From: Clostridia bacterium
GTDB lineage: Bacteria > Bacillota > Clostridia > TANB77 > CAG-465
Reading direction: 5' to 3'
Assembly: GCA_028684095.1 (NCBI GenBank)
Contig: JAQUGQ010000009.1
Span: forward strand, 1 to 58,019
Length of the DNA: 58,019 nt
Numbering within the stretch: the stretch's first letter is position 1; the number at the start of each line of letters is the position of its first letter. The notes beneath the pieces are model-generated. The model did not search any database, was not told the DNA's origin, and saw only the letters and a program-made list of their open reading frames with translations. Below are positions 22,852 to 39,782 of the stretch, in pieces. Both the position numbers and the translations under genes were made by a program.

Positions 22852-22879
22852 AAAACACCTCTTTTTAAAGAAGTGTTTT
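22852..22879 (-). terminator. Terminator of the fibre operon
   Basis: AAAACACCTCTTT with AAAGAAGTGTTTT (one mismatch) and then seven T on the minus strand, about 40 bases past the stop of the 2267-codon gene. Confidence 0.85.
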
Positions 22880-22919: not shown

Positions 22920-25900
22920 TTAAGATATATAATCTCTATATATGTAATAATATATAGCACCTTCATATGCAGCTACATTTGGATTTGGTACATTTAAATA
23001 CATTCCTGAATTTATAGGGAATATGTTAGCACCTAACAACATCGGTGGAACTGATGCAGAAAAATTAATTCTGTTTAAAGTAGTACAATTATCAAAACTA
23101 TTACTTGATATTGCTATAACCGATGTAGGAATTGTAAGTGTTGTTATAACACTTGCACCAGAAAATGCCCCTATCCCTACTACTTTAGTTGTACTTAACA
23201 TAGTATAAGAACCTGTTTTTCTATTAGGATATTTTATTAAATGCGTGTTTGTTTTATTATATAACACACCAGCCGTAGCTGAATAAAATGCATTATTTGA
23301 ATTTACATTTATGGTGGTAATTGAATTATTATTTGCCAAAAATCCATTTTGAATAGTATCTACATATCTAGGTATTGTAATTGTTGTTAAATTAGAAGTA
23401 TTATCAAAAGTTGCTGGTCCTATAGACGTTACATTGTATATATTACCACTAACATTAAATGATTCTGGTATTACTAATGTTGTATCACTACCTGTATAAG
23501 ATATAAGTTCTATCTGGTTTGTATTTATAACATTATACGAGAATGATCCTACATAAGAAACTCTTTCCATTACTTCATCAGGCCAAAGTGGCTCTGTAAA
23601 TCCCGTAGCACCTGTTGGTACAGAAATCGAATGATTATAGTATTTCCATATCCAAACTGTTCTAAATGCAGGAAAACTATTTGCTGTTATAGTAGGGGCT
23701 GTCATTACGCTTAATGTGAAATTTGTCATTGGTCCTGCTGCTCCACCTACACCGCCATAATAAGGATTATAAAATGCATAATCTCCTATTGTAATTATAT
23801 TTTCACCTAATATTACATTGCTGATTCTCATATTACTGTGGAATGCATATTCATCTACTACTTTAACTCCATTGAAAATCACACTAGTTAAATACTCACA
23901 ATTTTCAAAGGCATGCTTTCCTATATATGATAATCTGTTTCCTGTTAACGTGGATATATCTCTATTATTAAATGCATAATCTCCTATATACACCATAGAT
24001 GTTCCTAGTGCAACGGACCATGTTTGTGAACCTACGGAATCTGTATGGAAAAATGCATAATCTCCTATTGATATAACATCCATCGTTTGTGAATCTGCAG
24101 TAAACGAAGTTGGTAAACTATAACCACTCGTTAAATTAGGACCATGATATTCTATTATTTCCCAACCAGTTGCAACTGAATTATCTACTTTTAACTTTGT
24201 TGTAGATTTTATAGAATATTCACCTATATCGTATACTAATGGTGAATTTACATAACTACCATATATTGTACCTGTTCCATAAATAAAATTTTCAAAATCT
24301 ACTGACATTGTGTTTTTATATGCATCTACATAAGTGTAATTTCCAGACAAATCCCCATATGGAACATAAATTCTTAATCTATTCCCTATTTGAGTTCCTG
24401 CATTTAAAAATGCATAATTACCAAATACTATATTCATTGTTCCAGATTGTACATTTCCATTTGTAGAAGAAAAATATATCTGTTCTATTGCTGTATCATT
24501 CTCAAATAAGTTATTTCCTAAGTTAGTTATTGTACCTAAATTAACATAATTTAATAAGTTATTTTCAGCAAATGCATATTGTCCTGCAATAGATAAATTA
24601 TTAAAGCTAATAGTTAATAATCTATTACTTATGAAAGCATAATCTCCAACATTTACAACATTATTAGCTGTAACAGAGCTTACTCCATCTAAACCATTAA
24701 ATGCATAATTTCCTATATTTAATAAATATGGGTGAGATATTGCAAATGAATTATCCGGTATCATTTGAGCAAATTTGTATGCATAATCTCCAATAGATAT
24801 TAAATCATAAGTTTCACTTTCAATAGTTAATGAATTTGGTAATGTGTAGGAACTAGGTATATCCGCTCCATGATATTCTATTATTTCCCAACCAGTTACA
24901 TTTGCTGCACTAGCATTTGTTTTTATTACTTTTCTTACACTAAAAATACCAATATCCCATGGTATATTTGCTTGTTGATAACTACCAATTATATGTCCTT
25001 TTGCAAAGAAGTATTCTTTATACTCAGTTGCAAATAAATCTTTATATACATCTGCATATTGTTTTCCGTTTGGAGCAATTGCATCAGTTACATATATTCT
25101 AATTTTATTATTAGTTAAAGAACCAACATCTGTTATTGCAGTATTATTAAAAGCTAAGTTTAAATCAGTTGACTCAAAAAATATTTGCTCTAGTCTATCT
25201 AAATTGTATAATGAATTTGCATCCATATTTTTTACAGTTCCTAAGTTTATGCTATATAATGTTAACATATTTGCTAAAGCATATTCACCTATTGAATTTA
25301 AATTATCAAAACTTGCATTAGTTAATGACGAATTTTCAAATGCATTATTTCCTAATGTAACTAATGAATTTGCTATTATAGAATTTATTCCTTCTGTTCC
25401 TTTAAATGCATTATCACCAATATTTAGCAAATAATTACTATTTATATCTACACTTAGTCCAGTATCTAATGTTGTATGAATAAATGCATTGTCACCTACC
25501 GATATAACATTCAGTGATAAACTTTCAACATTTATTTCAGTTGGAAAAACATATCCACTCTGTAAGTTTTGTCCATGATACTCGATTATCTCCCAACCGT
25601 TTACATTAACACCATTTGAATTTAATATATCTACTACCTTTATTGAATATTCTCCGATATCATAAGGGATTGGTGTGTTTATATAACTACCAATTATTAT
25701 ACCGCTTTCATACACATATTGTTGATACAGAGGTAGTAATGCTTTATAAAAATCTATACTTGCTTGATCATTTGGTACATATATTCTAAATCTCTTGCTA
25801 GAATTAATTCCTATATTCGAAAAGTTTATTTCATCAATTGTCATATTATTTACATCATTACAATCAAAGAACAATTGCTCTAAATTAATATTATTTGCTA

Positions 25901-28900
25901 TTGCATTTTGTCCTATCACACTTGCCTTACCTATATTCAAACTATATAATGTACTAAGATTATAAAATGCTTCATTTCCAATTGAGTATAAGTTATCAAA
26001 TTCTGCCTTTGTTAATTTTGTAGCAGTAAATGCATTATCACCTATTATTTTTACTTTAGGTGTAATAATTGAATTAATTTTCAATCCATAAAAAGCTTTT
26101 TTACCAATATTAACTATATTTGGGTTACTGATATTTACAGTATTATTCAAAGTAACAGTAGAATTTCTGTAAGCATTATCTCCAATTGATATTACATCTT
26201 TAGTTACTTCATTTATAGTAAATGTAGTTGGTATATTATAAGATGATGTTAAATCTGCTCCTTGATAAGAAACTATTTCCCATCCATTAACATTATTATC
26301 ATAATAATCAGTTAAATTTACTTCTTTTACTGTATATTCTCCAAAATCATATGGAATAGCTACATGATAATAACTTCCTGTTATTGATCCTGTTGTATAT
26401 ATATATTGTTCATTTGATGAAAATAGATCTTTATATAGGCTAAGTATTGTATTACCTTCAGTACTAGTCCCGTTAGGTACATAAATACGAAGTCTACCAT
26501 CTAAATATTGTCCCCACCCACTAAATACAGCAGTATCTCCAACTGTTAAATTAACAACCTCTGCATTATTAATAGTTCTTGTAGTAGTGTTATTAAAATA
26601 AACTTTACCAAGTTGTGGACAATTAAATAGTGCTCTATCACCAATTACTTCAACTTTGCCTAAATTAATTTCATATAAACTTAAACTATCCTTAAAAGCA
26701 TTATTACCTAAATTAATTATATTATCTAATGTTACATATTTTAGTGTTGTTGTTTCAAATGCGCTATTACCTATTGAAGTAATATTATTTCCATATAGAT
26801 TTTCAATTTCTGTATTATAGAAAGAATAATCTCCTATTACATTAACATTTTGTAAATTTATACCTATTATGTTTCTATCATAAAAAGCATAATTTTTTAT
26901 TGTTTTAATATTATCTGATATTATTACTGTTGTTCCAGATATTGGTGTTATTAAATCTCTAAAAGATGAATATCCTAATTCATTTATATTATATTGTTGG
27001 TTGTTATACATTATATTATTTGGTACTGTGAATAAGCTACCAACGCTTATTTCACTTACAAATAAAGATATTCCTACACCATCAATAGTATTATATATAA
27101 AGTAATTTCTTAAATCAGATAAGTTAGAAGTTCTATGCACATATTCATTTGATATATTTGTTGTATTTCTGTAAAGTTCAATAGAACTTTCTGGTACAAA
27201 ATATCTAACTCCATTAACACTATTATCAAAAACTTGGCTAGCAACTTCTGGAGGGTTTAATCCCTCAAAATTAATGTATTTAGAATCTGTAAATGCTAGA
27301 GTTTCAATTAATGTAACAGTTTCAGGTATAGATACAAAATTAAATTTATCTGTTGGCTCAGAAGGAATTGTACCAAGTGTATCATTTTCAAAAGCACTAG
27401 CACCTATCTCTACTAAAGTTTTTGGTAATATGATAGTTTTCAAAGATGCTTTATTAGATAGAGCATTAGCTGGAATTCTATCTAATACACTATCATCTTT
27501 AACTCTTGCATTAGCAATATCTAGATACTCTAGCTGTGGTATTTCGCTACTTTTAAGAAATGTAAAGTTTGTATTTTCCATATAATTAGCATTTACTGTA
27601 TAAACAACTATTTTTTTTATATCCGCAATACTTTGCATTACATCAGGAGATTGACCCTCAGTAAAATATTCAATTAACAAATCTCTAATAGTATCATCTG
27701 CATTTCTTATATAAACTATATATGAGTTTGTTTCTCCAATTATAGGTACTACCGAATCTATTATATCAGTATATGATATATCCGCTTGTCCAAAGCTTTC
27801 AGAACCGCTTACTGTTATATCATTAGATGCTACTCCTTTTACTATTAAAGTATTACCATTATTTGGTCCTAAATATGGAGTTGCAGTTGTAGGTAAAACT
27901 ATTGAACTTCCACCTTCAATTCCTCTAATTATATTTAAGTTGTATATATATATTTGTGGTTTTGTAAATGAATCTAACAATCTCATATCTTGAAATTGAA
28001 CTTGAACTATACTTCCATTGTTTAATATTTCTATATTAGTTGCGTTAGGTTCAGCTACAACATTTCCAACATCTACATTTGGTGCAATTGTGAGTCTTGT
28101 ATTTGACATGATGTGTAAATCTGCTGGAATATTACCTATTTTATTACTTATTATTCTTACATTATCTAGTAATACTCCATCTTCTTCTTCATTTTGTAAG
28201 CCATTCAAGGTAATTTTGTCTCCAACAAATATATCATAAACTCCATTTTGACCAAGAAAATGTATTTTACTTTTTGGTGTATTAATAAATAATTCATTTC
28301 CGATATCAATTTGACCAGTTCCTATAGTGTTAATAATTAATTCTCCAAATTCAACGAAATCATAAACTAAATCTCCTGTTATTGCTAATTTATATCCATT
28401 AGTATCAATATTTAATCTTCTTGATATATTTACTGAACCATCTACATTTATATTTGATGTAAGTTTAACTGTATCTCCTGGTACAGCATTACTAATAGCA
28501 TTTCTAAATTGTAGTTCACTTCCTACTTGCCAAACTTCACCCTCTAAAGGTCCATCTATTTCTGCACCTACTTGTGTTACATACACATTTGTATGAACAG
28601 ACAATGTTTGACCATTATATAGAGCAGTATTGGCTGTTGAATACATGCCATAGTCTAATCTATAATATCTCTTGTTATTTTCAGTAAACTCTGCATCGAG
28701 TTCTATAATTCCATTTTTAATTGAATTTCCTATGATAGAAAGATTAGATACTGGTTGAGAACTATCAAATTCAACACTTTCGTCAAGTGGATTTGCTGCC
28801 GCATATGCTTTTAATTTCGAATCATATTCTGGTGTAATCGCATAAGTCTTTACACTATCAGTTACATCATAAAATCTATAATACATAACACCCGCATTTG

Positions 28901-29723
28901 CAACAGTTCCATCTAATTGAAACGTTATATTATATGCTATATCAAGTGATCCAATATTTTCTATTTCAATAAATTTGCTATTTCTTGATGTAACACCTAA
29001 ATTAGTTTCATATATAGTAGTTGCTACATCATCTATATCTCCTAAAAAAGTTCCAGCATTATCATATTGATTAATTTCACAATCAATATTACCTATACCA
29101 AAAAATGTTCCTTTACTGACATATTCATTGTAAAACCAAGCAAAAACAGAATTACCTATAAGCAATAGCATAACTACTACTACAAGTGCTTTAAAGGATA
29201 ATTCATTTACTTTAAACTTTTTCAAAATATTATACAATTTATATATATAATTTTTATTGTCATCTGATTTATTTTTATTTGCCATTTTGAAAATAAAATT
29301 TTTACAACCATTTGTAAAATTCAAAGCTGAATCTCTAAATCTTAATGACTTTAATTTTGTTATAATTTTAAACTTACTTAAGTTTGATTTATTGTTTTTT
29401 ATTTGTCTAACTTTTTTTACTTTATTTTTTTTATTTGATTGTAGAATAGGATCACTTAATTCTTCTGTATTTATAATATTATTAGGAAAAGTAGCAAACT
29501 TATTAATATTTCTAACTTCTTCATTTTTGTTATTCTTATCAAATTCTAAAATAGAGTCATTAATTAATTCTGTTTTTTCAATATTTTTTGAAAAAACAAT
29601 CTTTTTATTTTCATCAAAATCTTCATAATTTCTATAATTCTCAAGTAATTGCCTTATATTCGTATCATTATCAAAGATAGTTTTATGTTTTTTATCTTCT
29701 TTGTTACTTTTCACTAGTTTCAC
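22920..29723 (-). CDS. Giant TasA-domain/BspA-type leucine-rich-repeat surface protein
   Basis: 2267 residues. In order: a 175-residue basic, low-complexity N-terminal stretch with no membrane segment; a helix at about 178-196 ending NSVFAWF, the SipW-type cleavage context; a TasA/CalY-like beta domain (about 200-390, with IEIENIGSLDIAYNITFQLD); a beta-helix-like domain (about 395-650); then BspA-type repeats (IGDYAF, LGNNAF, TLKYVTLDNI type) to the end. Four super-repeats of about 240 residues each carry RIYVP, GSY...YDIGEYSIK and GWEIIEYHG. There is no LPXTG or C-terminal anchor. It is the last gene of the fibre operon, starting with GTG overlapping the sipW-like stop (an in-frame GTG three codons later, behind AGGTG, is also possible). 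It is most likely an adhesin carried on the fibre. Confidence 0.8.
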   Translation of the reverse strand: MKLVKSNKEDKKHKTIFDNDTNIRQLLENYRNYEDFDENKKIVFSKNIEKTELINDSILEFDKNNKNEEVRNINKFATFPNNIINTEELSDPILQSNKKNKVKKVRQIKNNKSNLSKFKIITKLKSLRFRDSALNFTNGCKNFIFKMANKNKSDDNKNYIYKLYNILKKFKVNELSFKALVVVVMLLLIGNSVFAWFYNEYVSKGTFFGIGNIDCEINQYDNAGTFLGDIDDVATTIYETNLGVTSRNSKFIEIENIGSLDIAYNITFQLDGTVANAGVMYYRFYDVTDSVKTYAITPEYDSKLKAYAAANPLDESVEFDSSQPVSNLSIIGNSIKNGIIELDAEFTENNKRYYRLDYGMYSTANTALYNGQTLSVHTNVYVTQVGAEIDGPLEGEVWQVGSELQFRNAISNAVPGDTVKLTSNINVDGSVNISRRLNIDTNGYKLAITGDLVYDFVEFGELIINTIGTGQIDIGNELFINTPKSKIHFLGQNGVYDIFVGDKITLNGLQNEEEDGVLLDNVRIISNKIGNIPADLHIMSNTRLTIAPNVDVGNVVAEPNATNIEILNNGSIVQVQFQDMRLLDSFTKPQIYIYNLNIIRGIEGGSSIVLPTTATPYLGPNNGNTLIVKGVASNDITVSGSESFGQADISYTDIIDSVVPIIGETNSYIVYIRNADDTIRDLLIEYFTEGQSPDVMQSIADIKKIVVYTVNANYMENTNFTFLKSSEIPQLEYLDIANARVKDDSVLDRIPANALSNKASLKTIILPKTLVEIGASAFENDTLGTIPSEPTDKFNFVSIPETVTLIETLAFTDSKYINFEGLNPPEVASQVFDNSVNGVRYFVPESSIELYRNTTNISNEYVHRTSNLSDLRNYFIYNTIDGVGISLFVSEISVGSLFTVPNNIMYNNQQYNINELGYSSFRDLITPISGTTVIISDNIKTIKNYAFYDRNIIGINLQNVNVIGDYSFYNTEIENLYGNNITSIGNSAFETTTLKYVTLDNIINLGNNAFKDSLSLYEINLGKVEVIGDRALFNCPQLGKVYFNNTTTRTINNAEVVNLTVGDTAVFSGWGQYLDGRLRIYVPNGTSTEGNTILSLYKDLFSSNEQYIYTTGSITGSYYHVAIPYDFGEYTVKEVNLTDYYDNNVNGWEIVSYQGADLTSSYNIPTTFTINEVTKDVISIGDNAYRNSTVTLNNTVNISNPNIVNIGKKAFYGLKINSIITPKVKIIGDNAFTATKLTKAEFDNLYSIGNEAFYNLSTLYSLNIGKASVIGQNAIANNINLEQLFFDCNDVNNMTIDEINFSNIGINSSKRFRIYVPNDQASIDFYKALLPLYQQYVYESGIIIGSYINTPIPYDIGEYSIKVVDILNSNGVNVNGWEIIEYHGQNLQSGYVFPTEINVESLSLNVISVGDNAFIHTTLDTGLSVDINSNYLLNIGDNAFKGTEGINSIIANSLVTLGNNAFENSSLTNASFDNLNSIGEYALANMLTLYSINLGTVKNMDANSLYNLDRLEQIFFESTDLNLAFNNTAITDVGSLTNNKIRIYVTDAIAPNGKQYADVYKDLFATEYKEYFFAKGHIIGSYQQANIPWDIGIFSVRKVIKTNASAANVTGWEIIEYHGADIPSSYTLPNSLTIESETYDLISIGDYAYKFAQMIPDNSFAISHPYLLNIGNYAFNGLDGVSSVTANNVVNVGDYAFISNRLLTISFNNLSIAGQYAFAENNLLNYVNLGTITNLGNNLFENDTAIEQIYFSSTNGNVQSGTMNIVFGNYAFLNAGTQIGNRLRIYVPYGDLSGNYTYVDAYKNTMSVDFENFIYGTGTIYGSYVNSPLVYDIGEYSIKSTTKLKVDNSVATGWEIIEYHGPNLTSGYSLPTSFTADSQTMDVISIGDYAFFHTDSVGSQTWSVALGTSMVYIGDYAFNNRDISTLTGNRLSYIGKHAFENCEYLTSVIFNGVKVVDEYAFHSNMRISNVILGENIITIGDYAFYNPYYGGVGGAAGPMTNFTLSVMTAPTITANSFPAFRTVWIWKYYNHSISVPTGATGFTEPLWPDEVMERVSYVGSFSYNVINTNQIELISYTGSDTTLVIPESFNVSGNIYNVTSIGPATFDNTSNLTTITIPRYVDTIQNGFLANNNSITTINVNSNNAFYSATAGVLYNKTNTHLIKYPNRKTGSYTMLSTTKVVGIGAFSGASVITTLTIPTSVIAISSNSFDNCTTLNRINFSASVPPMLLGANIFPINSGMYLNVPNPNVAAYEGAIYYYIYRDYIS
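24100..26720 (-). repeat. Four tandem super-repeats of about 700-720 bp inside the giant gene
   Basis: The GWEI motif recurs at about 26283, 25598, 24881 and 24161. DNA identity is high locally, for example in the stretch encoding EIIEYHG at 24150 and 24870. Such repeats can recombine and change adhesin length. Confidence 0.7.
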
Positions 29724-30247
29724 CTACTTTTTTTTAATAATAATTTTAATTCTTTCAACTCAGATCTAAATAATATAGCTAAGGGAAGTATTACTATAAA
29801 AATAAATCCAAATACATTTCTCATAAGTCTACTTATAATACTTACTGTAAAAATCTTATAAATTACTACTCCATATACTTGTTCTTGATATACTGCAGGG
29901 TCTAAAATCGGATTAGAAATTCCTTTTGTATAATATATATATCTATCATTTTCTGTTATTATTTGTTCAACTTGATGAGTAATTATTTTATCTTTAAACT
30001 CACTAGTCATACCTTCATATGATATTATATCACCAACTTTTATTTTGCTATAATCAGTCTTTTTAACTATTATCACATCACCAACTTTTAGTTTTGGACT
30101 CATACTAGCAGTTGAAACAGAAAATATTTTCAATCCAAACAAGCCATTACTTCTTGGAAATAGTCTAGTAAATAATACGAGTATTATAAAAGAAATAATT
30201 ATAAAAAATATCAAGTATTTAATTATATTTAAAAATTTTGTTTTCAT
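29720..30247 (-). CDS. sipW-like: SipW-type signal peptidase I (second copy)
   Basis: 175 residues, with an N-terminal helix (about 8-26) and C-terminal hydrophobic helices (about 138-162). The catalytic Ser is in STASMSPKLKVGD. The general base is His in IITHQVEQI, as in SipW and archaeal/ER-type peptidases; bacterial type I enzymes use Lys instead. A conserved Asp follows in the TKGISNPILD segment. These enzymes cleave AWF-type signal segments of TasA-like proteins. Its gene overlaps the giant adhesin gene by 4 bases, so it probably processes that protein. An AGGAGA site precedes the ATG. Confidence 0.9.
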   Translation of the reverse strand: MKTKFLNIIKYLIFFIIISFIILVLFTRLFPRSNGLFGLKIFSVSTASMSPKLKVGDVIIVKKTDYSKIKVGDIISYEGMTSEFKDKIITHQVEQIITENDRYIYYTKGISNPILDPAVYQEQVYGVVIYKIFTVSIISRLMRNVFGFIFIVILPLAILFRSELKELKLLLKKSR

Positions 30248-30278
30248 TAATTTCTCCTGTATTCATATTTAATCTTAT

Positions 30279-30926
30279 TTATGGATTTATAAACATTATT
30301 TTATTAATCGATAAATAAGTATTTTGTATAGCATTTGTAGCATTTTTAACTATAGTTATATTAAAAAATATTGATACCATATCATTTGCGGGTATTTGTA
30401 ATTTATTAAAAAAGTCAAAATAATAATGTTCATTCACTTCATCGTACTCTATCCTATCTTCCAGTTTAAACGTAAATAATTGAGGGCTAGTACATGTAAT
30501 TTGTACTACATCTTTTAACAAATCTATATCTCCATACATTTCTGAAAAAACAATTTTTGTTATTGAAGCAATAGTTTCAACATTATTATATACATCAAAA
30601 CGATATTTTTGAGTAGAACCAGGTTCTAATGTCGCTATTTGTATTAAAGGTTCTGATGGAGATTGTAACTGTTCAACATATTCATTGTCTTTTAGTAAAA
30701 ATAGTTTTACATCCACATCATTATCTGTTACAATAAGCTGACCAGTATAGTCTATATTTTCAGCAGATGAAGCATTTGTAACCATCCAAGCAAATACACC
30801 AAACATAGCCACTATAGCAATATTAAGTAAAATATTCATTATGAGTTTTGGACTTTTTAGTGTATTTACTTTCTTCTTTACTTGTTTTTTCATATTTCTT
30901 GTTGCAAACTTTTTTCTATATTCCAT
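30279..30926 (-). CDS. TasA-like exported protein, short type
   Basis: 215 residues. A basic N terminus and a membrane helix end in FGVFAWMVTNASSA, a SipW-type signal segment at about residue 40-50. The mature part is beta-rich with ATLEPGSTQKYRFDVYNN, which resembles the edge strands of TasA/CalY. It lacks the WxEGxDxDC motif of the other subunits, so it may be a cap, adapter or anchor rather than a polymerising subunit. GAGGT precedes the ATG. Its gene lies between a full subunit gene and the second signal peptidase gene. Confidence 0.7.
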   Translation of the reverse strand: MEYRKKFATRNMKKQVKKKVNTLKSPKLIMNILLNIAIVAMFGVFAWMVTNASSAENIDYTGQLIVTDNDVDVKLFLLKDNEYVEQLQSPSEPLIQIATLEPGSTQKYRFDVYNNVETIASITKIVFSEMYGDIDLLKDVVQITCTSPQLFTFKLEDRIEYDEVNEHYYFDFFNKLQIPANDMVSIFFNITIVKNATNAIQNTYLSINKIMFINP

Positions 30927-30953
30927 ATATTTACCTCATCATAATCCAGTGAT

Positions 30954-32045
30954 TTAGAAATTTACTGTAGTTGCATAAGATTCTGGTGATATACCTGGTT
31001 GCTCAGCAATTCTTACATAAACCGTCGTATAACCCACAAACGACATATATGGATCTGTTACTTTTGTCCATATCGTTGTTTTATCATTAGTTAAAGCCCA
31101 TTCCATATCTGTAGTTAGGTTATTTATTGTATGATTAGAAGTATTAGCTGTGACATTTGGTGCATCTAATAATACATTAGCACTACCAAATTTTAAATAT
31201 ACATCTAACAATGAACTTGCAATAGTGTTAGTACAGTCAACATCGCCGCCTTCTAACCATATTCTAATATTCACTCTTACTTGTGTATTTGCAGGTATTG
31301 TAGTTATTAATTTATTTAAGTCAATAGGGTCATCATCAAATAATCCTCTACCACCATTTTTATTATCAAAAGTTCTAACAATTTGATCCCCAATTAAATC
31401 AGGATCAATATTATTATATATAAAATCACCTATACCAATGACTGCTTCTGTTGTAAATGGTTTATTTATTCCATTTTCTTCTTCATTACCAAAAATCATA
31501 TTAGTTGTAGTAGTTGCATTAGTTATTGTAGCTGCTATTCTTATTGCATCTGCTGCAATTCCTGTAAAACTAGAATCCTTATGCATATATACATGTTTTG
31601 CATATTCTTCTGTTTGTAAATAAAAATCATAATCAATATATCCATATTCGTTTATATTACTTTTGGCTACAACAGTATCTATTTGTACAAATGTAGGATT
31701 TTGAACCCCTAAACCTTGTCCAAAATCAATTCTGAAAAAATTAATATTATCTGCTGATGAAACTTGTTTTAATTCAAAAGATTCGAAATCATTAAATAAT
31801 TGATTAAGACTTAGCGTTGTTCTACTAGGACTATCTGGTGAAAGTTTTATCATAAGTCCATCTGCTACCGTTACTTTTATTTGATTTCCAACTATTTGTG
31901 GATTAGCATTTTCTGAAAACCAAGAATATGAAGAAAATATAAACAAAATGCTTATTCCAAATAGTATAAAAATTTTAGTAAATATTTTACTACTTACATT
32001 AAGTTTAAAAAATTTGTTTTCACATTTATCTTTTGTTATTTTCAT
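30954..32045 (-). CDS. TasA-like fibre subunit
   Basis: 363 residues. The signal segment ends FIFSSYSWFSENANP. The mature protein starts VGNQIKVTVADGLMIKLSPD, a strand order seen in its paralogues (xVxxxxGxxIxxxxDxxxW). Near the C terminus it has RIWLEGGDVDCTN, the W-x-E-G-x-D-x-D-C motif shared by four proteins of this operon. After the motif come more than 80 further residues, an extra C-terminal beta domain (about 280-363) not present in the others. AGGGAATAG precedes the ATG. Confidence 0.75.
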   Translation of the reverse strand: MKITKDKCENKFFKLNVSSKIFTKIFILFGISILFIFSSYSWFSENANPQIVGNQIKVTVADGLMIKLSPDSPSRTTLSLNQLFNDFESFELKQVSSADNINFFRIDFGQGLGVQNPTFVQIDTVVAKSNINEYGYIDYDFYLQTEEYAKHVYMHKDSSFTGIAADAIRIAATITNATTTTNMIFGNEEENGINKPFTTEAVIGIGDFIYNNIDPDLIGDQIVRTFDNKNGGRGLFDDDPIDLNKLITTIPANTQVRVNIRIWLEGGDVDCTNTIASSLLDVYLKFGSANVLLDAPNVTANTSNHTINNLTTDMEWALTNDKTTIWTKVTDPYMSFVGYTTVYVRIAEQPGISPESYATTVNF

Positions 32046-32070
32046 AATCTATTCCCTTCTTCTGTATTAT

Positions 32071-33048
32071 TTAAAATATACCAACAAAACTCAAGAATAT
32101 CTTAAATTGTCCACCTTTTAATGAATATATAGCTTCTCTATCATTTCCCTCTACCCATATTCTTATAGTTACTGCTCTTACATTTTCTTCAATATTTTCA
32201 CTAATAGTGTCAATACTTGTTAATGCAATATCATCTCCACTTGAAAATGTCTCATATGAAGCATTTATGTCTTCAGTAACATTTGTTAAACTTTCTAAGT
32301 AAAAACTATCAAAATCTATAACTTTTGTATATTCATAGTCTTGTGATTCAGTTGAGTCTAAGTATCCATAGTATTTATCATCTACTATTTTAACTTGATA
32401 TCCTTTATTAGGTGCCCAGATTAATTTTGGAGTAGTTTGCTCAATAAATTCTTCATCTATTATATCATTTTCAATAAATGCTATCCTAACTGCTCCTGCT
32501 ATTAAATCTTTGGAAAAATTTCCATCTGGACTTTCTCTTATAATTTCAGTTGAATTAATTAAATTTATTGTATTTTTACCTGCCGCTGGATAAACATCAG
32601 ATTTTTTTTCCAAATATATAGTTGTCGGAGCTAAAGAACGAAACAATACTTTATATTCTAAGTAGTCTTCGTTTTTAATTGCAGGAACAAAATTTATTGG
32701 TGTACCATCATCACTTTTGATATTTGGCTTATAAAAATTAATACCTTCACTTGTAGATTCTTTATACAAAACAAAATCATCAGCAATATCAAACTCTGCT
32801 GTTTTCAACCATGTAATTCCATTATCTAAAGATATTTCTACCTGTTCAGCCCCTGATGTAGTAGCATTTAAATTAGGAACACCTATATCTTTATTATTTG
32901 TAAACCATGCATATGTTGCTATAATGAAAAAAATTACAGCAATAAGTAATTTTGTAACTGAAGAAACTAATTTTTCCTTTAATATTACACTTCTTGGTAT
33001 TAAAGATTTACTTTCTACTGTTACTACATTTTTTATTTTATTTTTCAA
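32071..33048 (-). CDS. TasA-like fibre subunit
   Basis: 325 residues with a TTG start behind GAGGT. The signal segment is FFIIATYAWFTNN at about 40-52. The mature domain begins VEISLDNGITWLKTAEF, in the same position as SMDATNWKASL of the major subunit. The C-terminal motif is RIWVEGNDREAIYSLKGGQF, a variant of WxEGxDxDC that has lost the Cys. Size and composition fit a minor subunit. Confidence 0.78.
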   Translation of the reverse strand: MKNKIKNVVTVESKSLIPRSVILKEKLVSSVTKLLIAVIFFIIATYAWFTNNKDIGVPNLNATTSGAEQVEISLDNGITWLKTAEFDIADDFVLYKESTSEGINFYKPNIKSDDGTPINFVPAIKNEDYLEYKVLFRSLAPTTIYLEKKSDVYPAAGKNTINLINSTEIIRESPDGNFSKDLIAGAVRIAFIENDIIDEEFIEQTTPKLIWAPNKGYQVKIVDDKYYGYLDSTESQDYEYTKVIDFDSFYLESLTNVTEDINASYETFSSGDDIALTSIDTISENIEENVRAVTIRIWVEGNDREAIYSLKGGQFKIFLSFVGIF

Positions 33049-33065
33049 AACTATACCTCGCTTTA

Positions 33066-34190
33066 CTATTTTCGTATTATTTGAATTGCTCTCTTCAAAT
33101 CAACATTATGTCTTTTTATATATTTGCAAAGTTCATTATATATAGTTTTTTGGACTTTGATTTTCTTCTGTTTATACAAACTAAAAGTTTTAGCAAGTAT
33201 TTGCTTAAACTCTGTTGCATCAATATCTTTATTTTCTTTCATGAAATCTTGAATTGACTTATTCAAATAATAGTCGTCTGATTTTTTTTCTTCCGGCTTA
33301 ATATCCTCTTTTTTAGATGTTAAATTATTTAATATATTGTAATTCATAAAAGAAGTTAGTACATATTTAAGTTCAACTTCTTTGTTAGAATCAATAACTA
33401 AATTTTCTTTAACTTCTTTTCTTTCTTTATAATCATATCTTTCTATAAACTCCCATAGCTCAAGTGCTTTCTTAAAATTTGTATTCTTTAAAATAGTATT
33501 AGTCTTTCTAATTGGTGATCTTACAGGCAAAGCGCCCATTAAAGATTTCATTAATGGGCTTTTAATATAATCTTGAACTATTAATTCAATTTTATCAATT
33601 CTTGTATTTATATCTAATCCTTGCCCATTTGATTTTAATGAATCTTCATAAGAATTTGCTTGTAGATTAAGACTTATATTTATTAGTTCACTGTTTACTT
33701 TTGTTTGTGAATTGAAATTAAGTTTCTTATCACTTTTTGAAAAAGATCCTTCTTTAACAGCATCTTTTCTTTGCTTTATAAACATATATAAATTATTAAG
33801 CAATGAAAAGATAAATCTATTTTCATACAAATCATAAGTTTCTTCTTTATGTATATTTAAAACTGCACTTGGTGTTATAAATCCATCATCACTTACACTC
33901 TGAATTAAATTAGTATGTTGTGCCAAATGTCTAATTGTTTCCATTGATATCTTTTTTGCTTTCTCTATAGGTACAATTTCTTCTTCTTGCATTAAAAATT
34001 TCTTTGGAATTCTTACTATAGCATCTAGATATTGAATAGTTTCCTCGATTTTATCTACCCATGAATAATCAAATTGGATACTATGAATATCTGTTTCAAT
34101 CTTATAGTTAGAATTATTTTGAGAAACAAATTCTTGTAACTTGTTTTCATCAATATTATTTACTAAATCTTTCATTCCATCTGTTTCCAC
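33066..34190 (-). CDS. DUF2357-type protein, McrC-like partner without visible nuclease
   Basis: 374 residues, soluble, GTG start behind GAGGT. The DUF2357 signature is recognisable: TPSAVLNIHKEETYDLYENR followed by FIFSLLNNLYMFI at about 120-150, and later MGALPVRSPIRKTNTILKNT with LELWEFIERYDY. DUF2357 is the N-terminal part of McrC-type proteins that pair with McrB-like ATPases. I see no PD-(D/E)xK nuclease residues in the remaining C-terminal 100 residues, which are charged and helical. Its gene starts 19 bases after the McrB-like gene ends, so the two are co-expressed. The function here is unknown; a regulator or adaptor of the ATPase is the natural guess. Confidence 0.7.
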   Translation of the reverse strand: METDGMKDLVNNIDENKLQEFVSQNNSNYKIETDIHSIQFDYSWVDKIEETIQYLDAIVRIPKKFLMQEEEIVPIEKAKKISMETIRHLAQHTNLIQSVSDDGFITPSAVLNIHKEETYDLYENRFIFSLLNNLYMFIKQRKDAVKEGSFSKSDKKLNFNSQTKVNSELINISLNLQANSYEDSLKSNGQGLDINTRIDKIELIVQDYIKSPLMKSLMGALPVRSPIRKTNTILKNTNFKKALELWEFIERYDYKERKEVKENLVIDSNKEVELKYVLTSFMNYNILNNLTSKKEDIKPEEKKSDDYYLNKSIQDFMKENKDIDATEFKQILAKTFSLYKQKKIKVQKTIYNELCKYIKRHNVDLKRAIQIIRK

Positions 34191-34209
34191 TTTAATACCT
34201 CTTACTTTA

Positions 34210-35775
34210 TTACATCATTTTCTTAAGTCTTAATAAGAAACTTTTACATTCATTCATATTATCTTTTCCATATGTTTTACTTAAAAAAGTAATAAAACCA
34301 TCAATTTCATCTCTTATAAAAGACAGATTCAATTGTTCAAATTTTCTTAAAATTTTATGTGCAATTACATAATCTATTGCATCTATTTCAGTACCACCGC
34401 AAGCAATATATGCAGGTACAAATTCTTTTAGTTGCTTTACAATACGATTACCAAAAGCCATACGAAAATGTTCAATAACGTAATCATCCATTTTTGCTAG
34501 ATTATTCATATTTTCATCAGACACATTATATTTAGTATATGCCTCTGCAAACAAACTTTCTAAATATTTACTACTTAATTTTATAGAATCAGTAGGTGGT
34601 GGATCAAATTTTACACCCTTATCATTTATATCTATTGGCATTGCTCTATCATAAACTTTATCAGTTACCATGAATGTAGAATCATCATTATTGATAGTAC
34701 CGATATACCACATATTATCTGGTAATTTTAATTTACCATCAGGAAGTCTTTTTGGATCAGTAGGCCAAACACTTGGCACTAACTCTATTATCCATTCAGC
34801 TCTACTTGGCATTTCTAAAATTGATAACATTTCTGCAAAATAATACTCAACACGGGCTATATTCATCTCATCCAGTATTGTTATATATACTTGATCAATA
34901 TATGTTGCTTCATACATTTTTTTCAAAACTTCTGTTTCAGTAAATTTTTTGGTAAACTCATTAAAAAATCCAAACAACTCTGTTCTATCACGCCATGAAG
35001 GCTGAACAGAAGCAATTACCGCATCGTTTTTCATAAATTTTCCCCAAGCATAAGGTAGTGAAGTTTTTCCTGTTCCAGATATACCTTGTAATATAATAAG
35101 CCTATTAGAAGCAAAAGAAGCTAAAAACAACCTAATTATATCAATTTTATAATATAAACCTAAATGAAAAGCCGCAAAGTTTCTAAACCTTTCGCATATA
35201 TCTATTAATGATAAATCATCATTAGTAGGTTCAGGCACATATGTTTCCATATCCTTATCAATTTGTATAAGTTTAAAGAAACGGCTATCAGTTGTGATAT
35301 CTATTTCCTTTTGCTCATCAGTAGTATCTTCTTTTAATATTGGATTACCTTTTTCATCAAACTCAAAATTTTCATCAGAACTTTCACCTGGCTTTAAACC
35401 AAGCTGAGATACTTTCATTGCAAATAATTTTTCTTTTTCATGTGTTAATTTAAATACATCATCGTTTAATTTTCCTAATTCATCTAATAGACATTCTTGT
35501 TCTACTAGAGATTTTCTTACTCTTATATATTTTTTGAAAAGTAATGCAAATAGTAATATTGCTGAGCCAACAAGTACTATTATTAATATAGCAGCAATAA
35601 CAATAAATATCCATTGACCACCTTTAATATCATTTGAATATCTTCCAATGATATCATAATAGTCACCTATATTTAATATTTGCTTTACCCCATTAAAAAT
35701 CCCATTTAATATTTGACCTATCCCGCCAAAAAATTGTGACATAAAATCAAATAAAAATCTAACGTATAAATCCAT
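34210..35775 (-). CDS. Membrane-anchored McrB-like AAA+ ATPase
   Basis: 521 residues. A hydrophobic or amphipathic N terminus and one transmembrane helix (about 55-80) are followed by a coiled coil (84-120), a linker (120-190) and an AAA+ domain of the McrB/MoxR-like group. Walker A is GISGTGKTS (231-239), Walker B is ITILDEMNIAR (298-308), and the GTINNDDSTFMVTDKVYDRA segment (359-378) corresponds to the NTADRS-like signature of McrB relatives. Canonical McrB is soluble and drives an McrC nuclease on modified DNA; this one is tethered and lies between fibre genes. AAGGAGT precedes the ATG. NTP type (ATP or GTP) cannot be told by eye. Confidence 0.8.
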   Translation of the reverse strand: MDLYVRFLFDFMSQFFGGIGQILNGIFNGVKQILNIGDYYDIIGRYSNDIKGGQWIFIVIAAILIIVLVGSAILLFALLFKKYIRVRKSLVEQECLLDELGKLNDDVFKLTHEKEKLFAMKVSQLGLKPGESSDENFEFDEKGNPILKEDTTDEQKEIDITTDSRFFKLIQIDKDMETYVPEPTNDDLSLIDICERFRNFAAFHLGLYYKIDIIRLFLASFASNRLIILQGISGTGKTSLPYAWGKFMKNDAVIASVQPSWRDRTELFGFFNEFTKKFTETEVLKKMYEATYIDQVYITILDEMNIARVEYYFAEMLSILEMPSRAEWIIELVPSVWPTDPKRLPDGKLKLPDNMWYIGTINNDDSTFMVTDKVYDRAMPIDINDKGVKFDPPPTDSIKLSSKYLESLFAEAYTKYNVSDENMNNLAKMDDYVIEHFRMAFGNRIVKQLKEFVPAYIACGGTEIDAIDYVIAHKILRKFEQLNLSFIRDEIDGFITFLSKTYGKDNMNECKSFLLRLKKMM

Positions 35776-35821
35776 ATGTTGTACTCCTTAAATTGTATTA
35801 CTTTTCAAAATCTAATCTTTT

Positions 35822-36382
35822 TTAACTATTAGTTATATTATCATCTTGTTTGATTCTCACCATAATTAAAACAAAATTTACTAATTGAAATATGAATATC
35901 AGAAATAATGGTAATATAATGCAAACAAAGAAACCTATTTTTGATTTAAAGAAATCTAATAAGTATCCAGCTTTTGAAATTTTAATACCATCAAATTTAG
36001 AAACTATATCTCCTGGTGCTACTTCTTTTTCGTCAATCAATTCATTATTATCACCCTTAGTTACAAAAGATAATACCCCTTTATCATTTTTTGCTTCTTT
36101 AATTCTATGAGTTATTATTACTACTTTTTCTTTTTCAATTGAGAAAAATGAAATTACATCTCCCTCTTTTAAAGTTTTAACATCAGATTTCTCACTAATT
36201 ATTAAATCACCTGTATAAATAGCAGGCTCCATTGAAGCAGATTGTATGCTAAGTGGAATGTATCCAAAAAAATTAGATACTCCTTTTTCTTTTGTATTAA
36301 GAGATATTATTGTAATAGCAGCTGCTATTACAATGAATACCCATATTAATATGTTTAAGATAATCTTAAATTGTTTTTTCAT
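35822..36382 (-). CDS. sipW-like: SipW-type signal peptidase I (first copy)
   Basis: 186 residues with helices at both ends. The catalytic Ser is in QSASMEPAIYTGD, the His base is in IITHRIKEA, and TKGDNNELID carries the conserved Asp; Lys is absent from the dyad position. It belongs to the Ser-His SipW group. Its gene lies directly downstream of the major subunit gene, as sipW accompanies tasA in Bacillus (there in the order tapA-sipW-tasA). It differs in sequence from the second copy, so the two may have separate clients. Confidence 0.92.
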   Translation of the reverse strand: MKKQFKIILNILIWVFIVIAAAITIISLNTKEKGVSNFFGYIPLSIQSASMEPAIYTGDLIISEKSDVKTLKEGDVISFFSIEKEKVVIITHRIKEAKNDKGVLSFVTKGDNNELIDEKEVAPGDIVSKFDGIKISKAGYLLDFFKSKIGFFVCIILPLFLIFIFQLVNFVLIMVRIKQDDNITNS

Positions 36383-36434
36383 TTCTTCACCTCACGCGTA
36401 TATGTTATTATAATTGTTATTTATATAATTAAAA

Positions 36435-37457
36435 TTATGTATTGTTTTTTGATATTTTAATGTTAAATGTTATATCTGAACCAGATGCATTGTTTTCACA
36501 ATCAACATCTTGTCCTTCAATCCATGCATATACTCTAACTTTTGTAACTCCTGCATTTAATGATAAAATTTGTGTAAATGCAGTTGATCCAGCTACTCTT
36601 TGAACTGAAGGTGATACTGAAGGAGTTAAATTATTAAAATATAGTGCATCAACAGAATCTAATTGTACATCATTTAGTGCAGTTATTGGTGCTTTTACTC
36701 CATAATAACTTGCTATTGCTGGACCAGTAGTTGTTGTTGTAATACCATACACATCTAGTGCTGCTATTACACCAGCAGCTGTATGTACATCTGCATTAGG
36801 CTCCCAAAATATAACCTGTGTAGCTCCATCTAGTGCTTGTGCTGCTGCTGCTGTAGAACCAACTGCCACATTACCTTCATCTAAAAGAGCAAATCTTGCA
36901 GCATTTTTCAAACCTACATCTGTATCTTGAAAAATAACGTCTGCTCCTGGTGTTAAATATAATGTTTCTGCATCAGCAGATTGAATGAATAAATCAAATG
37001 CTATAAAATCTCCTGTAAGTCCAGCAACTCCTGATCCATCAGCAGCCTCTGTTGTTTTAGTTGCAGTTAAAATATTATAACCTTCTGTCTCATTTGATGT
37101 AACTGCCCCTTTATACATATTTAAAAATCCAGTAGCAGCATCAATAACTCCTCCAGAAGAAACTGGTACTAATGATGCTGGTACTTGATTTGTATGGCCT
37201 GTATAAGCTACATCTTGTATGTCAGCAGTTGTTAAACTTGCTTTCCAGTTTGTAGCATCCATAGAGATTTGAATACCATTAGATGCTGTAACGTTTACAT
37301 CCAATGAACCAAGTGTAACTGTTGCATTAGCTGTAAACCATGCATAAGTTGATGTTGTTAGCGATATTGCTGTAACTAATAGCGTTAATAAAGCTATTAC
37401 GATCGTACGTCTTGTTACTACTTCCTCTTTTTGTTTTTTAATTTTTATATCTTTCAT
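36435..37457 (-). CDS. Major TasA-like fibre subunit (candidate)
   Basis: 340 residues. The signal segment is a helix ending SLTTSTYAWFTANATVTLGS at about 30-50. The mature protein is Ala/Thr/Gly/Val-rich, poor in Lys, and its DNA is far richer in GC than the rest of the operon, as expected of a highly expressed structural protein. QISMDATNWKASL marks the first strands and VRVYAWIEGQDVDCENNASG the C-terminal WxEGxDxDC motif. These features make it the best candidate for the main polymer. AAAGGA precedes the ATG. Confidence 0.8.
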   Translation of the reverse strand: MKDIKIKKQKEEVVTRRTIVIALLTLLVTAISLTTSTYAWFTANATVTLGSLDVNVTASNGIQISMDATNWKASLTTADIQDVAYTGHTNQVPASLVPVSSGGVIDAATGFLNMYKGAVTSNETEGYNILTATKTTEAADGSGVAGLTGDFIAFDLFIQSADAETLYLTPGADVIFQDTDVGLKNAARFALLDEGNVAVGSTAAAAQALDGATQVIFWEPNADVHTAAGVIAALDVYGITTTTTGPAIASYYGVKAPITALNDVQLDSVDALYFNNLTPSVSPSVQRVAGSTAFTQILSLNAGVTKVRVYAWIEGQDVDCENNASGSDITFNIKISKNNT

Positions 37458-37535
37458 TTTTTTTAATTCCTTTCTTTTGTAAATTACATTTTTAGGCTTT
37501 TACCTTTAAATTAATAAATTAACACGGTTTGAATA

Positions 37536-38300
37536 TTATTCACTTCCTAATTCGTGAATAGTCATCTTAAGTTTCATCTCACCTCCTAAAATGTCATCTT
37601 TGCAATCGGGATCATCACCCTCCAGCCAAATAACTATCGTATATTTATCTATTTCTTCAGGTTCAAAATCTTTTCTTTCTTCTATCATAACCAAACGTTC
37701 TGATAAAAATTTAGTAGTGCCACTTTCTGGTTCCTTAGTTGTCTTACTCTCTTTTGCATATGTTGTTTTTACACCATTTTTGTATACAATAACTCTAATT
37801 GCTTCATCTACATTTTTAATCACTGATATTATTTCAATTATTGATTCATATTGTGCAGATTCAGTTCCAATGTTTTTCACAAAAAATGTGTAACCTATTG
37901 AGTATTTATCATTATGTGGTCCTTCATGTTCTTGAATATCTTGTGGTAGCCAACTTTCAGATATGTTATCCATATATTCCAAATTATCTGCTTTTAATAT
38001 CATAGATGTTTCATGAAAATCTTTATAATTTGATATTTCTATATTTTTTGTTGCATTTAAATTTGGATCTAGGGTTATTGTAAAATTTCCTGTTTCATTT
38101 ACTATATATACTATTCCATATATAAAGGATAAGAATGATAGTAATGCCAACACAAGAATTCCTAAAATTTTAGTAAATATGTTTCTTTTTCGTACTTGTT
38201 TTGCAGTAACCTTTGCATATAGCTTGCCTTTTTCAACTTTTTCAAATGTTCTTTTTACTGTGTTGACTACATCTGGCTTTATATCTTTTGTTTTTTTCAA
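37536..38300 (-). CDS. TasA-like minor subunit with a long N-terminal region
   Basis: 254 residues with a TTG start behind GGAGGGGG. A 40-residue basic cytosolic N terminus precedes one membrane helix (about 45-68); the usual AWF is replaced by NETGNFTITLDPN, so it may not be cleaved and could act as the membrane base of the fibre. The outer domain has GYTFFVKNIGTESAQYESII, like TasA edge strands, and ends in IVIWLEGDDPDCKDDILGGE, the shared motif. It lies just upstream of the major subunit gene. Confidence 0.72.
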   Translation of the reverse strand: MKKTKDIKPDVVNTVKRTFEKVEKGKLYAKVTAKQVRKRNIFTKILGILVLALLSFLSFIYGIVYIVNETGNFTITLDPNLNATKNIEISNYKDFHETSMILKADNLEYMDNISESWLPQDIQEHEGPHNDKYSIGYTFFVKNIGTESAQYESIIEIISVIKNVDEAIRVIVYKNGVKTTYAKESKTTKEPESGTTKFLSERLVMIEERKDFEPEEIDKYTIVIWLEGDDPDCKDDILGGEMKLKMTIHELGSE

Positions 38301-38318
38301 TGCCCCCTCCTCTTATAT

Positions 38319-39440
38319 TTAATGCTTAAGCAAGTAATTTTCACTTACGTATTCTGAAGATTCTAATGAATCTTCAAAAAAAGTTAAGTTGTTATTATTG
38401 CAAAAATCAATTGTATCATTGCTATTGTTTTTTAGTTGTTCGTTTAAAAACAAATAATCAACTGTATTCTTAAATAAATAAGTATTATGGTTTATTTTAT
38501 TCATATCATATATTGCTATTTTAAACCCTAATTTTTTTAAATTCTCGATTACTTCTTTGTTTTTTAGCGAAGATTTATAATCTATATTTAAGCATATTTT
38601 TATTTTAGCTTCGGGATTATTAAGTTTTTTTATAAGTTCCTCTAATAATTCTTCATTTTCGATAAAATCCTCAGGTAACTTTATAAAAAAAATAGGAAGT
38701 TTCTTTTCTATTAGTAATAATTTTATTATAAATATCGTGAGCATTTCTGCTATAATAATGGTAAAATCAAAATCTACTTTCTTTGCTATAATCTGTTCTT
38801 TAACTTCACTAGGTAAATATTTTTCCAAAGATTTCATTTTATAATTAAGCCTTACATTATAAAAATTGGGTTGTATTTCAGAAAAGCTTAAGTTAAATTT
38901 ATCATCTCTTATTCTATTAAAAAACTTTTTATCATCAGAAATATTTTCTTTTATTTTTTCTTCTAGTTCAAGTTGTACATTTTTTATTTGATTTTTAAAT
39001 TCATCATCATATATTTTTGTATTATTCTCTAAAATCTCATCAACTATGGTTGTATATCTAATTTTAGGATTTTCTAATATATTAGTTTTAGTATTAATAT
39101 CTAAAGAAAATAAAATAATTTTTGATATTAAAATTATATAGTCCTTGTTTTCATATATATCACTTACTACTTTATCGTTATCAATAAAATTTATTGTGTA
39201 GTTAATAATCTTTCTAAGTTTTAAATAAGTAATTTCATTATCGTGCAAAAACTTACTCACTTTATATGTGGTTTTTATATTATTTCCTACATCATCATCC
39301 ATATATTTTTCAACAATTTCTTGAAATATTTTAATATTCATGTATTTTTTATCTAAAGCGTTTTTCATTAGTATCTGTGCATATTCAGTAACATTATCTT
39401 TTTTTCTCTGATAATAAATATCAATAATATTATCATCCAT
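38319..39440 (-). CDS. Cytosolic protein with a degenerate EAL-like C-terminal half
   Basis: 373 residues from ATG 39440, which follows GGAGG by six bases; an earlier in-frame ATG overlaps no site. The N-terminal half is helical and unrecognised. The C-terminal half has the strand-helix order of an EAL domain: FIKLPEDFIENEELLEELIK, then ICLNIDYK, then VIENLKKLGFKIAIYDMNKI and DYLFLN, but the catalytic EAL and metal residues are not visible. It could be a c-di-GMP sensor or an inactive scaffold. It is the first gene of the fibre operon. The EAL link is my inference from pattern only. Confidence 0.45.
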   Translation of the reverse strand: MDDNIIDIYYQRKKDNVTEYAQILMKNALDKKYMNIKIFQEIVEKYMDDDVGNNIKTTYKVSKFLHDNEITYLKLRKIINYTINFIDNDKVVSDIYENKDYIILISKIILFSLDINTKTNILENPKIRYTTIVDEILENNTKIYDDEFKNQIKNVQLELEEKIKENISDDKKFFNRIRDDKFNLSFSEIQPNFYNVRLNYKMKSLEKYLPSEVKEQIIAKKVDFDFTIIIAEMLTIFIIKLLLIEKKLPIFFIKLPEDFIENEELLEELIKKLNNPEAKIKICLNIDYKSSLKNKEVIENLKKLGFKIAIYDMNKINHNTYLFKNTVDYLFLNEQLKNNSNDTIDFCNNNNLTFFEDSLESSEYVSENYLLKH

Positions 39441-39534
39441 GCAATACCTCCAACACATTTAGCCCATTAAAAATTCATATCCAAAATATATAAATATTAT
39501 ATATTTTTTCACTAAATATCTTAATTTCTTCAAT

Positions 39535-39563
39535 ATTATATATTAAAAGGTAAAATAAATCAA
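39535..39563 (-). promoter_or_regulatory. Promoter of the fibre operon
   Basis: Minus-strand TTGATT, 17-base spacer, TATAAT. The leader would be about 90 bases before the first ATG. No riboswitch-like structure is evident there. The rest of the 39441-39859 gap holds a hairpin AGACTG-N7-CAGTCT at 39754-39772 and the terminator at 39783; otherwise I see nothing. Confidence 0.7.
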
Positions 39564-39782
39564 GTGATTTTATACAAAATTCCTCATTTTATATTATTAA
39601 TTTACAATTTATGATATAAAACATAAGATATTTAACCGAATTGTAACATAAATGACATATTACGACAGTAAACCATGTAAATTAGTAAGGGTTTTTCAAT
39701 AAATTCAGCTGCAATTAATAAATGTTTTTAAAGTTATAATTCAAATAAAAAACAGACTGTAAACAGCAGTCTAAAATACAAA

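Follow-up and report, generated by a model that had tools for sequence, protein, structure and literature searches.

The window analysed here is a 58,019-nucleotide stretch (contig JAQUGQ010000009.1) of a gut-type Clostridia bacterium, in which eleven minus-strand open reading frames (ORFs) run from position 39440 (or 39458) down to 22920. Spacing between these genes ranged from a 4-base overlap to a gap of 78 bases, in agreement with a preliminary description of eleven same-strand genes with short gaps. ORF 1 opens at 39458, and an inner ATG at 39440 corresponds to the start of its homologue in locus L023. A terminator-like hairpin at 22852–22879 closes the operon, and another at 39753–39773, just 5' of the operon, ends the upstream unit (both on the minus strand); terminator-like sites were in excess in the region, with 8 found and 2.8 expected from shuffled sequences. 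The single promoter proposed earlier has a counterpart in a weak TTGATT-17-TATAAT match at 39535–39563 on the minus strand. Promoter-like matches in the region were no more common than in shuffled sequences, however, and this promoter is therefore only plausible. The operon is flanked by separate units on both sides. On the upstream side these genes specify ABC uptake of the zinc type, an ArsP-type permease and a DUF1980 protein, and on the downstream side an ArsR-type regulator, a permease, thioredoxins, DsbD and a methyltransferase. Each of the flanking clusters (43176–39860 and 22742–19116) contains an ArsP_1 permease.

Two of the genes, all of which lie on the minus strand, encode signal peptidases of the SipW/ER type. 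The product of 35822–36382, in which Ser-His type motifs could be read, was matched by the NCBIfam SipW model at 3e-32 and by the archaeal/ER-type model at 3.9e-29; the corresponding values for the product of 29720–30247 were 8.6e-20 and 3.5e-22. The matches fell below the cut-off of the Bacillus SipW equivalog (190 bits) and above that of TIGR02228. Two SipW-type peptidases had also been described initially. Four further genes encode putative fibre subunits, each carrying a hydrophobic leader whose last residues are AWF, SWF or AWM: 36435–37457 (STYAWF), 32071–33048 (TYAWF), 30954–32045 (SYSWF) and 30279–30926 (FAWM). Curated TasA and camelysin models gave no match to these subunits beyond a marginal hit of TIGR04088 (0.0093) to one alignment member, and sequence comparison of the subunits with solved structures returned nothing, TasA included. 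Thus, of the several TasA-like proteins claimed earlier, the SipW-type leaders were recovered and the resemblance to TasA itself was not; we refer to them as TasA-like by leader and context only. The last gene (22920–29723) encodes the predicted giant adhesin, a BspA-type leucine-rich protein of 2267 amino acids with LRR_5/BspA repeats (1.1e-85) and an internal SipW-type leader (VFAWF) that follows about 178 N-terminal residues. In loci of the f3 family (e.g. L058, 5304–8711), the AAA+ unit is immediately preceded, on its own strand, by a second cassette of the SipW type, made up of peptidases and small proteins with leaders.

The two promoter-proximal genes encode proteins of other kinds. The product of 37536–38300 has one transmembrane (TM) segment, no AWF cleavage motif, and a C-terminal WLEGxDxxC-type signature shared with the subunits. 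Across loci its fibre-like ectodomain was most conserved, and the membrane-adjacent, presumably cytoplasmic side was moderately conserved. These features suggest a candidate membrane-held, fibre-like anchor or base. ORF 1 (38319–39440) encodes a degenerate EAL-like protein: Pfam EAL matched at 2.6e-4 with 20.9 bits, below the gathering score of 31.3, and comparison by hhalign with true standalone EAL relatives gave an E-value of 4.9e-5 at a probability of 68%. In the alignment, YDMN occupies the place where DDFG is expected, the EGVE motif is absent, many EAL signature residues are lost, and the catalytic residues of a phosphodiesterase are not present.

In the middle of the operon lies a gene (34210–35775) for an McrB-like AAA+ protein. 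The motifs GISGTGKT (Walker A), DEMN (Walker B) and NNDD were invariant or nearly so in an alignment of the family, and McrB was the sole sequence relative of the AAA+ profile in the PDB (9.4e-8). NNDD was invariant among SipW-linked homologues and aligned to NLDE of the outgroup L069, a correspondence that leaves NxD spacing only; the NxD reading rests on this alignment, because NNDD by itself also fits NxxD. A single strong TM segment begins at about residue 55 (hydropathy 3.29), and an AlphaFold2 model placed residues 52–124 in one helix (pLDDT about 50–76), with the TM segment running into it. Pfam FtsB/DivIC did not match the protein at 0.01; the candidate defence model PDC-M26A matched it at 5.2e-40. 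The structures returned by Foldseek for the AlphaFold2 model were AAA+ proteins of several kinds (MCM, dynein, NorQ, BrxL and McrB), so the kinship with McrB rests on sequence. The N-terminal TM segment was rejected as a divider of SipW-linked from unlinked AAA+ proteins, several relatives of the paired-AAA+ type also having a strong TM segment.

The adjoining gene (33066–34190) encodes a protein matched by Pfam DUF2357 at 1.3e-12, and this match, together with the McrB-like domain and the TM segment, bears out the earlier reading of a membrane-helix AAA+ gene followed by a DUF2357 gene in mid-operon. DUF2357 corresponds to the N-terminal, GTPase-stimulating portion of McrC according to Bell et al. 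(2024; PMC11090510). Nuclease families of Pfam, NCBIfam and PADLOC gave no match to this protein or elsewhere in the operon, and no D...(D/E)xK set was found among the invariant residues of 27 DUF2357 homologues. The AlphaFold2 model (mean pLDDT 72, pTM 0.44; helix 325–373) yielded no convincing solved match by Foldseek and VIA-align at this confidence, and McrC was not listed. DUF2357 proteins of some other loci (L046, 3110–6724; L035, 11662–13995; L034) are enlarged by one to several repeats of about 150 residues (YxYSFxARLI...), which in the L035 protein, the one tested, had no Pfam match. Those of L031 (11669–13789) and relatives (L026–L032) carry a very long, probably helical, Lys/Glu/Ala-rich C-terminal tail.

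To place the AAA+/DUF2357 pair in its genomic context, homologous loci were compared. Among 191 genomes of the order, 19 carried an AAA+ homologue, which was of the fibre type in 18 and a distant relative in one; in the class, distant relatives counted, 26 of 391 genomes did so. A search of 398 genomes of the phylum added no carrier, and the known carriers thus all belong to one class. Twenty-eight AAA+ loci were taken from genome contigs. Thirty-two fibre-type loci were well flanked, having four or more genes upstream and three or more downstream; some are close relatives and they do not represent 32 independent events. A SipW-type peptidase was encoded at position −1 or +2 relative to the AAA+ gene in all 32, and DUF2357 directly followed the AAA+ gene in 31. 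In a tree of the AAA+ proteins, all 53 SipW-linked members fell on one side of a single branch (support 86/99); shuffling the linkage gave a mean of 12 changes, and none of 500 shuffles was as low. Leaders of the AWF/AWM type were enriched near the pair (77 of 553 vs 6 of 261 genes, p = 1.6e-8).

SipW-type peptidases themselves are widespread, occurring in 95 of the 191 genomes of the order, and are therefore no marker of the pair, though all 18 AAA+ genomes of the order had one, compared with 77 of the 173 others (Fisher p = 1.4e-6). Sixteen SipW loci from genomes of the order that lack the AAA+ gene contained no DUF2357 and no EAL-like protein, and gave one marginal match to the anchor-like protein (2e-4). 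The pair therefore marks a distinct sub-type that has additional parts of its own. Most SipW loci of the order lack it, so that it defines this sub-type and is no general need of SipW systems. The preliminary description had named a chance neighbourhood, with the pair absent from most related fibre loci, as the outcome that would overturn it: such absence is indeed the rule among SipW loci of the order, whereas within the SipW-linked clade the peptidase linkage, the single clade on the tree and the position of DUF2357 all identify the pair as an integral part of the fibre locus. We regard it as nearly certain that the pair is a component of the fibre system.

Other components accompany the pair less uniformly. 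The anchor-like protein was found in 26 of the 32 well-flanked fibre-type loci (missing from six), and an EAL-family protein in 27 (missing from five). One clade has an intact membrane GGDEF–EAL protein (EAL 5.9e-56) at position +3 or +4 of the AAA+ gene, and a second has an upstream standalone EAL protein that matches solved EAL proteins, FimX among them, at 2.6e-24. The upstream protein of the f3 family is homologous to the EAL-like protein of the window; its direct profile link to EAL was not significant (E = 0.12), so we discounted that link, and the protein's only tie to EAL runs by way of the homologue in the window. Outside the operon, the same genome encodes two GGDEF and two clear EAL domains. 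We consider the odds of cyclic-di-GMP signalling playing a part throughout the family to be about even, and those for such a role in this window to be lower, the EAL-like protein being very degenerate.

Nine loci with more distant AAA+ relatives and no SipW also lacked the EAL and anchor-like proteins. Five of these (L110–L114) have paired AAA+ matches with DUF2357 and lie beside large proteins with an N-terminal membrane segment, and a transglutaminase domain was present in two of the neighbours tested (903 amino acids in L110 and 1383 in L113). In this sister clade the paired AAA+ genes stand around or beside DUF2357 (L110, 7749–15595; L111, 8012–19501; L112–L114), with, in L110, an L,D-transpeptidase gene ahead of the AAA+ pair. 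Because the sister clade has the pair without SipW, SipW fibres are not its sole client. Plasmids and phages gave only partial relatives, at less than 60% identity, and no near full-length copy; an origin from mobile elements was rejected on this account. One unannotated human faecal phage record (MT835511.1, 40037–41104) encodes a relative of the AAA+ domain that is 35% identical and of the distant type. Phage-dependent release of the fibre, as once suggested for this operon, found no support, a full-length copy being absent from the phages and plasmids searched.

The preliminary description knew of no described system with this composition, but such systems had already been named CoCoPALM, in one passage and without analysis, by Bell et al. 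(2024; PMC11090510). As characterized there, CoCoPALM shares with the window an McrB-like domain of the NxD type joined to a TM segment, an McrC (DUF2357) partner, and an association with proteins of the signal peptidase family, which are regarded as pilus assembly factors. In CoCoPALM the McrB-like domain is said to be preceded by a TM segment plus an FtsB-like coiled coil, and the McrC partner usually carries a coiled coil; the AAA+ and DUF2357 proteins of the window have predicted helices (52–124 and 325–373). The portion of that account available to us does not include subunits with SipW-type leaders, the anchor-like protein, an EAL/GGDEF partner, giant adhesins or the paired-AAA+ sister clade. 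A literature search, outside which most subscription papers lay, returned nothing on CoCoPALM beyond this paper and its preprint. What is new here is the composition, the controls, the cyclic-di-GMP-type partner, the single-pass anchor candidate and the paired-AAA+ transglutaminase sister clade.

Three better-known systems offer further comparisons. E. coli McrBC and the window share an McrB-type AAA+ domain followed by a DUF2357 partner; in contrast to McrBC, the AAA+ N-terminus in the window is a membrane anchor with no recognised DNA-binding domain, the motif is NxD rather than NxxD, and a nuclease domain was not detected. FimX-type GGDEF–EAL proteins of type IV pili resemble the window in that a catalytically degenerate EAL or EAL-like protein stands beside a surface-fibre machine, but FimX serves an unrelated fibre and the EAL-like protein of the window has lost many signature residues. 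The tapA-sipW-tasA operon of Bacillus subtilis has in common with the window a SipW-type peptidase, leader-bearing secreted subunits and a minor-subunit anchor candidate. It has one peptidase, compared with two in the window, and to our knowledge contains no AAA+, DUF2357 or EAL gene; nor do we know of a motor for TasA. B. subtilis TasA fibres are reported to assemble by donor-strand exchange (PMC9674648), with TapA acting as a chaperone (PMC10151520).

Taken as a whole, the data are best explained by a SipW-processed fibre with an McrBC-derived machine that drives or gates its assembly or turnover, a reading to which we assign a probability of roughly 45%. In this scheme the giant adhesin would tip or decorate the SipW-processed surface fibre made by the operon, and the AAA+/DUF2357 pair would drive or gate its assembly (or turnover) from the cytoplasmic face of the membrane. 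The AAA+ protein may form a membrane-tethered ring whose nucleotide hydrolysis is activated by DUF2357, as McrC does for McrB. The ring would act on fibre precursors held in the membrane. Its most plausible point of contact is the single-pass protein encoded at 37536–38300, with its fibre-like ectodomain, lack of a cleavage motif and moderate conservation just inside the membrane; the EAL-family protein could link the machine with cyclic-di-GMP or some derived signal. We infer that the McrBC-derived complex most likely acts in the cytoplasm as an engine, driven by nucleotide, that controls or assembles the fibre. The narrower proposal, in which the pair is a motor that works on membrane precursors during assembly or turnover, we put forward tentatively, at somewhat under even odds. 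Against the overall explanation count the lack of a known motor for TasA, the fold search with DUF2357 that did not return McrC, the sub-threshold EAL match, the indirect tie of the f3 homologue to EAL, the five loci without EAL, the six without the anchor-like protein, and the sister clade without SipW.

It is also conceivable, though unlikely, that the operon serves signalling or mechanosensing, with the EAL, AAA+ and DUF2357 proteins relaying the state of the fibre, such as surface contact, to the cell interior, and hydrolysis resetting a sensor rather than building a fibre. The TM segment and long helix of the AAA+ protein, the single-pass topology of the anchor-like protein and the membrane GGDEF–EAL protein of one clade would all fit such a relay; however, the window shows no evident signal output, and its EAL-like protein is degenerate. 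Rather improbable is the capture of a surface fibre by a conflict (defence) system tethered to the membrane, the pair sensing envelope attack and the fibres or adhesins serving as response or decoy. The PDC-M26A match of the AAA+ protein (5.2e-40) and the patchy distribution of homologues (18 of 191 genomes in the order and 26 of 391 in the class, including distant relatives) accord with defence, as does the kinship of McrB and DUF2357 with Type IV restriction (PMC11090510). According to the same source, however, CoCoNuTs whose McrC nuclease is missing or inactive are always accompanied by another nuclease nearby, while no nuclease or other effector was detected in this operon; furthermore, neither plasmids nor phages yielded a copy of nearly full length, and the fibre parts and EAL-family protein co-vary with the pair. 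Finally, a chance neighbourhood, or a passenger restriction module inserted into a fibre operon, would agree with the absence of the pair from most SipW loci of the order, but can be set aside given the 32/32 linkage, the single clade (53/53) and the nearly constant place of DUF2357.

A conserved fibre operon that includes a membrane-anchored relative of a restriction motor, with no DNA-cutting domain detected in its partner, suggests that a defence machine was recruited to make or regulate a structure on the bacterial surface. A still broader reading, in which Clostridia generally use nuclease-free McrBC as a membrane motor to assemble surface proteins, its single-AAA+ form acting on SipW fibres under cyclic-di-GMP-type control and its paired-AAA+ form on membrane-anchored transglutaminase proteins, is doubtful; if true, it would be the first role of McrBC outside nucleic-acid conflict of which we know. 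CoCoPALM, so far merely named, gains concrete conserved parts, and the question of what McrBC does without a nuclease becomes testable. If the main reading is correct, a restriction-type motor would have been re-used for extracellular architecture, and SipW-type fibres, which are thought to need none, would gain nucleotide-driven assembly.
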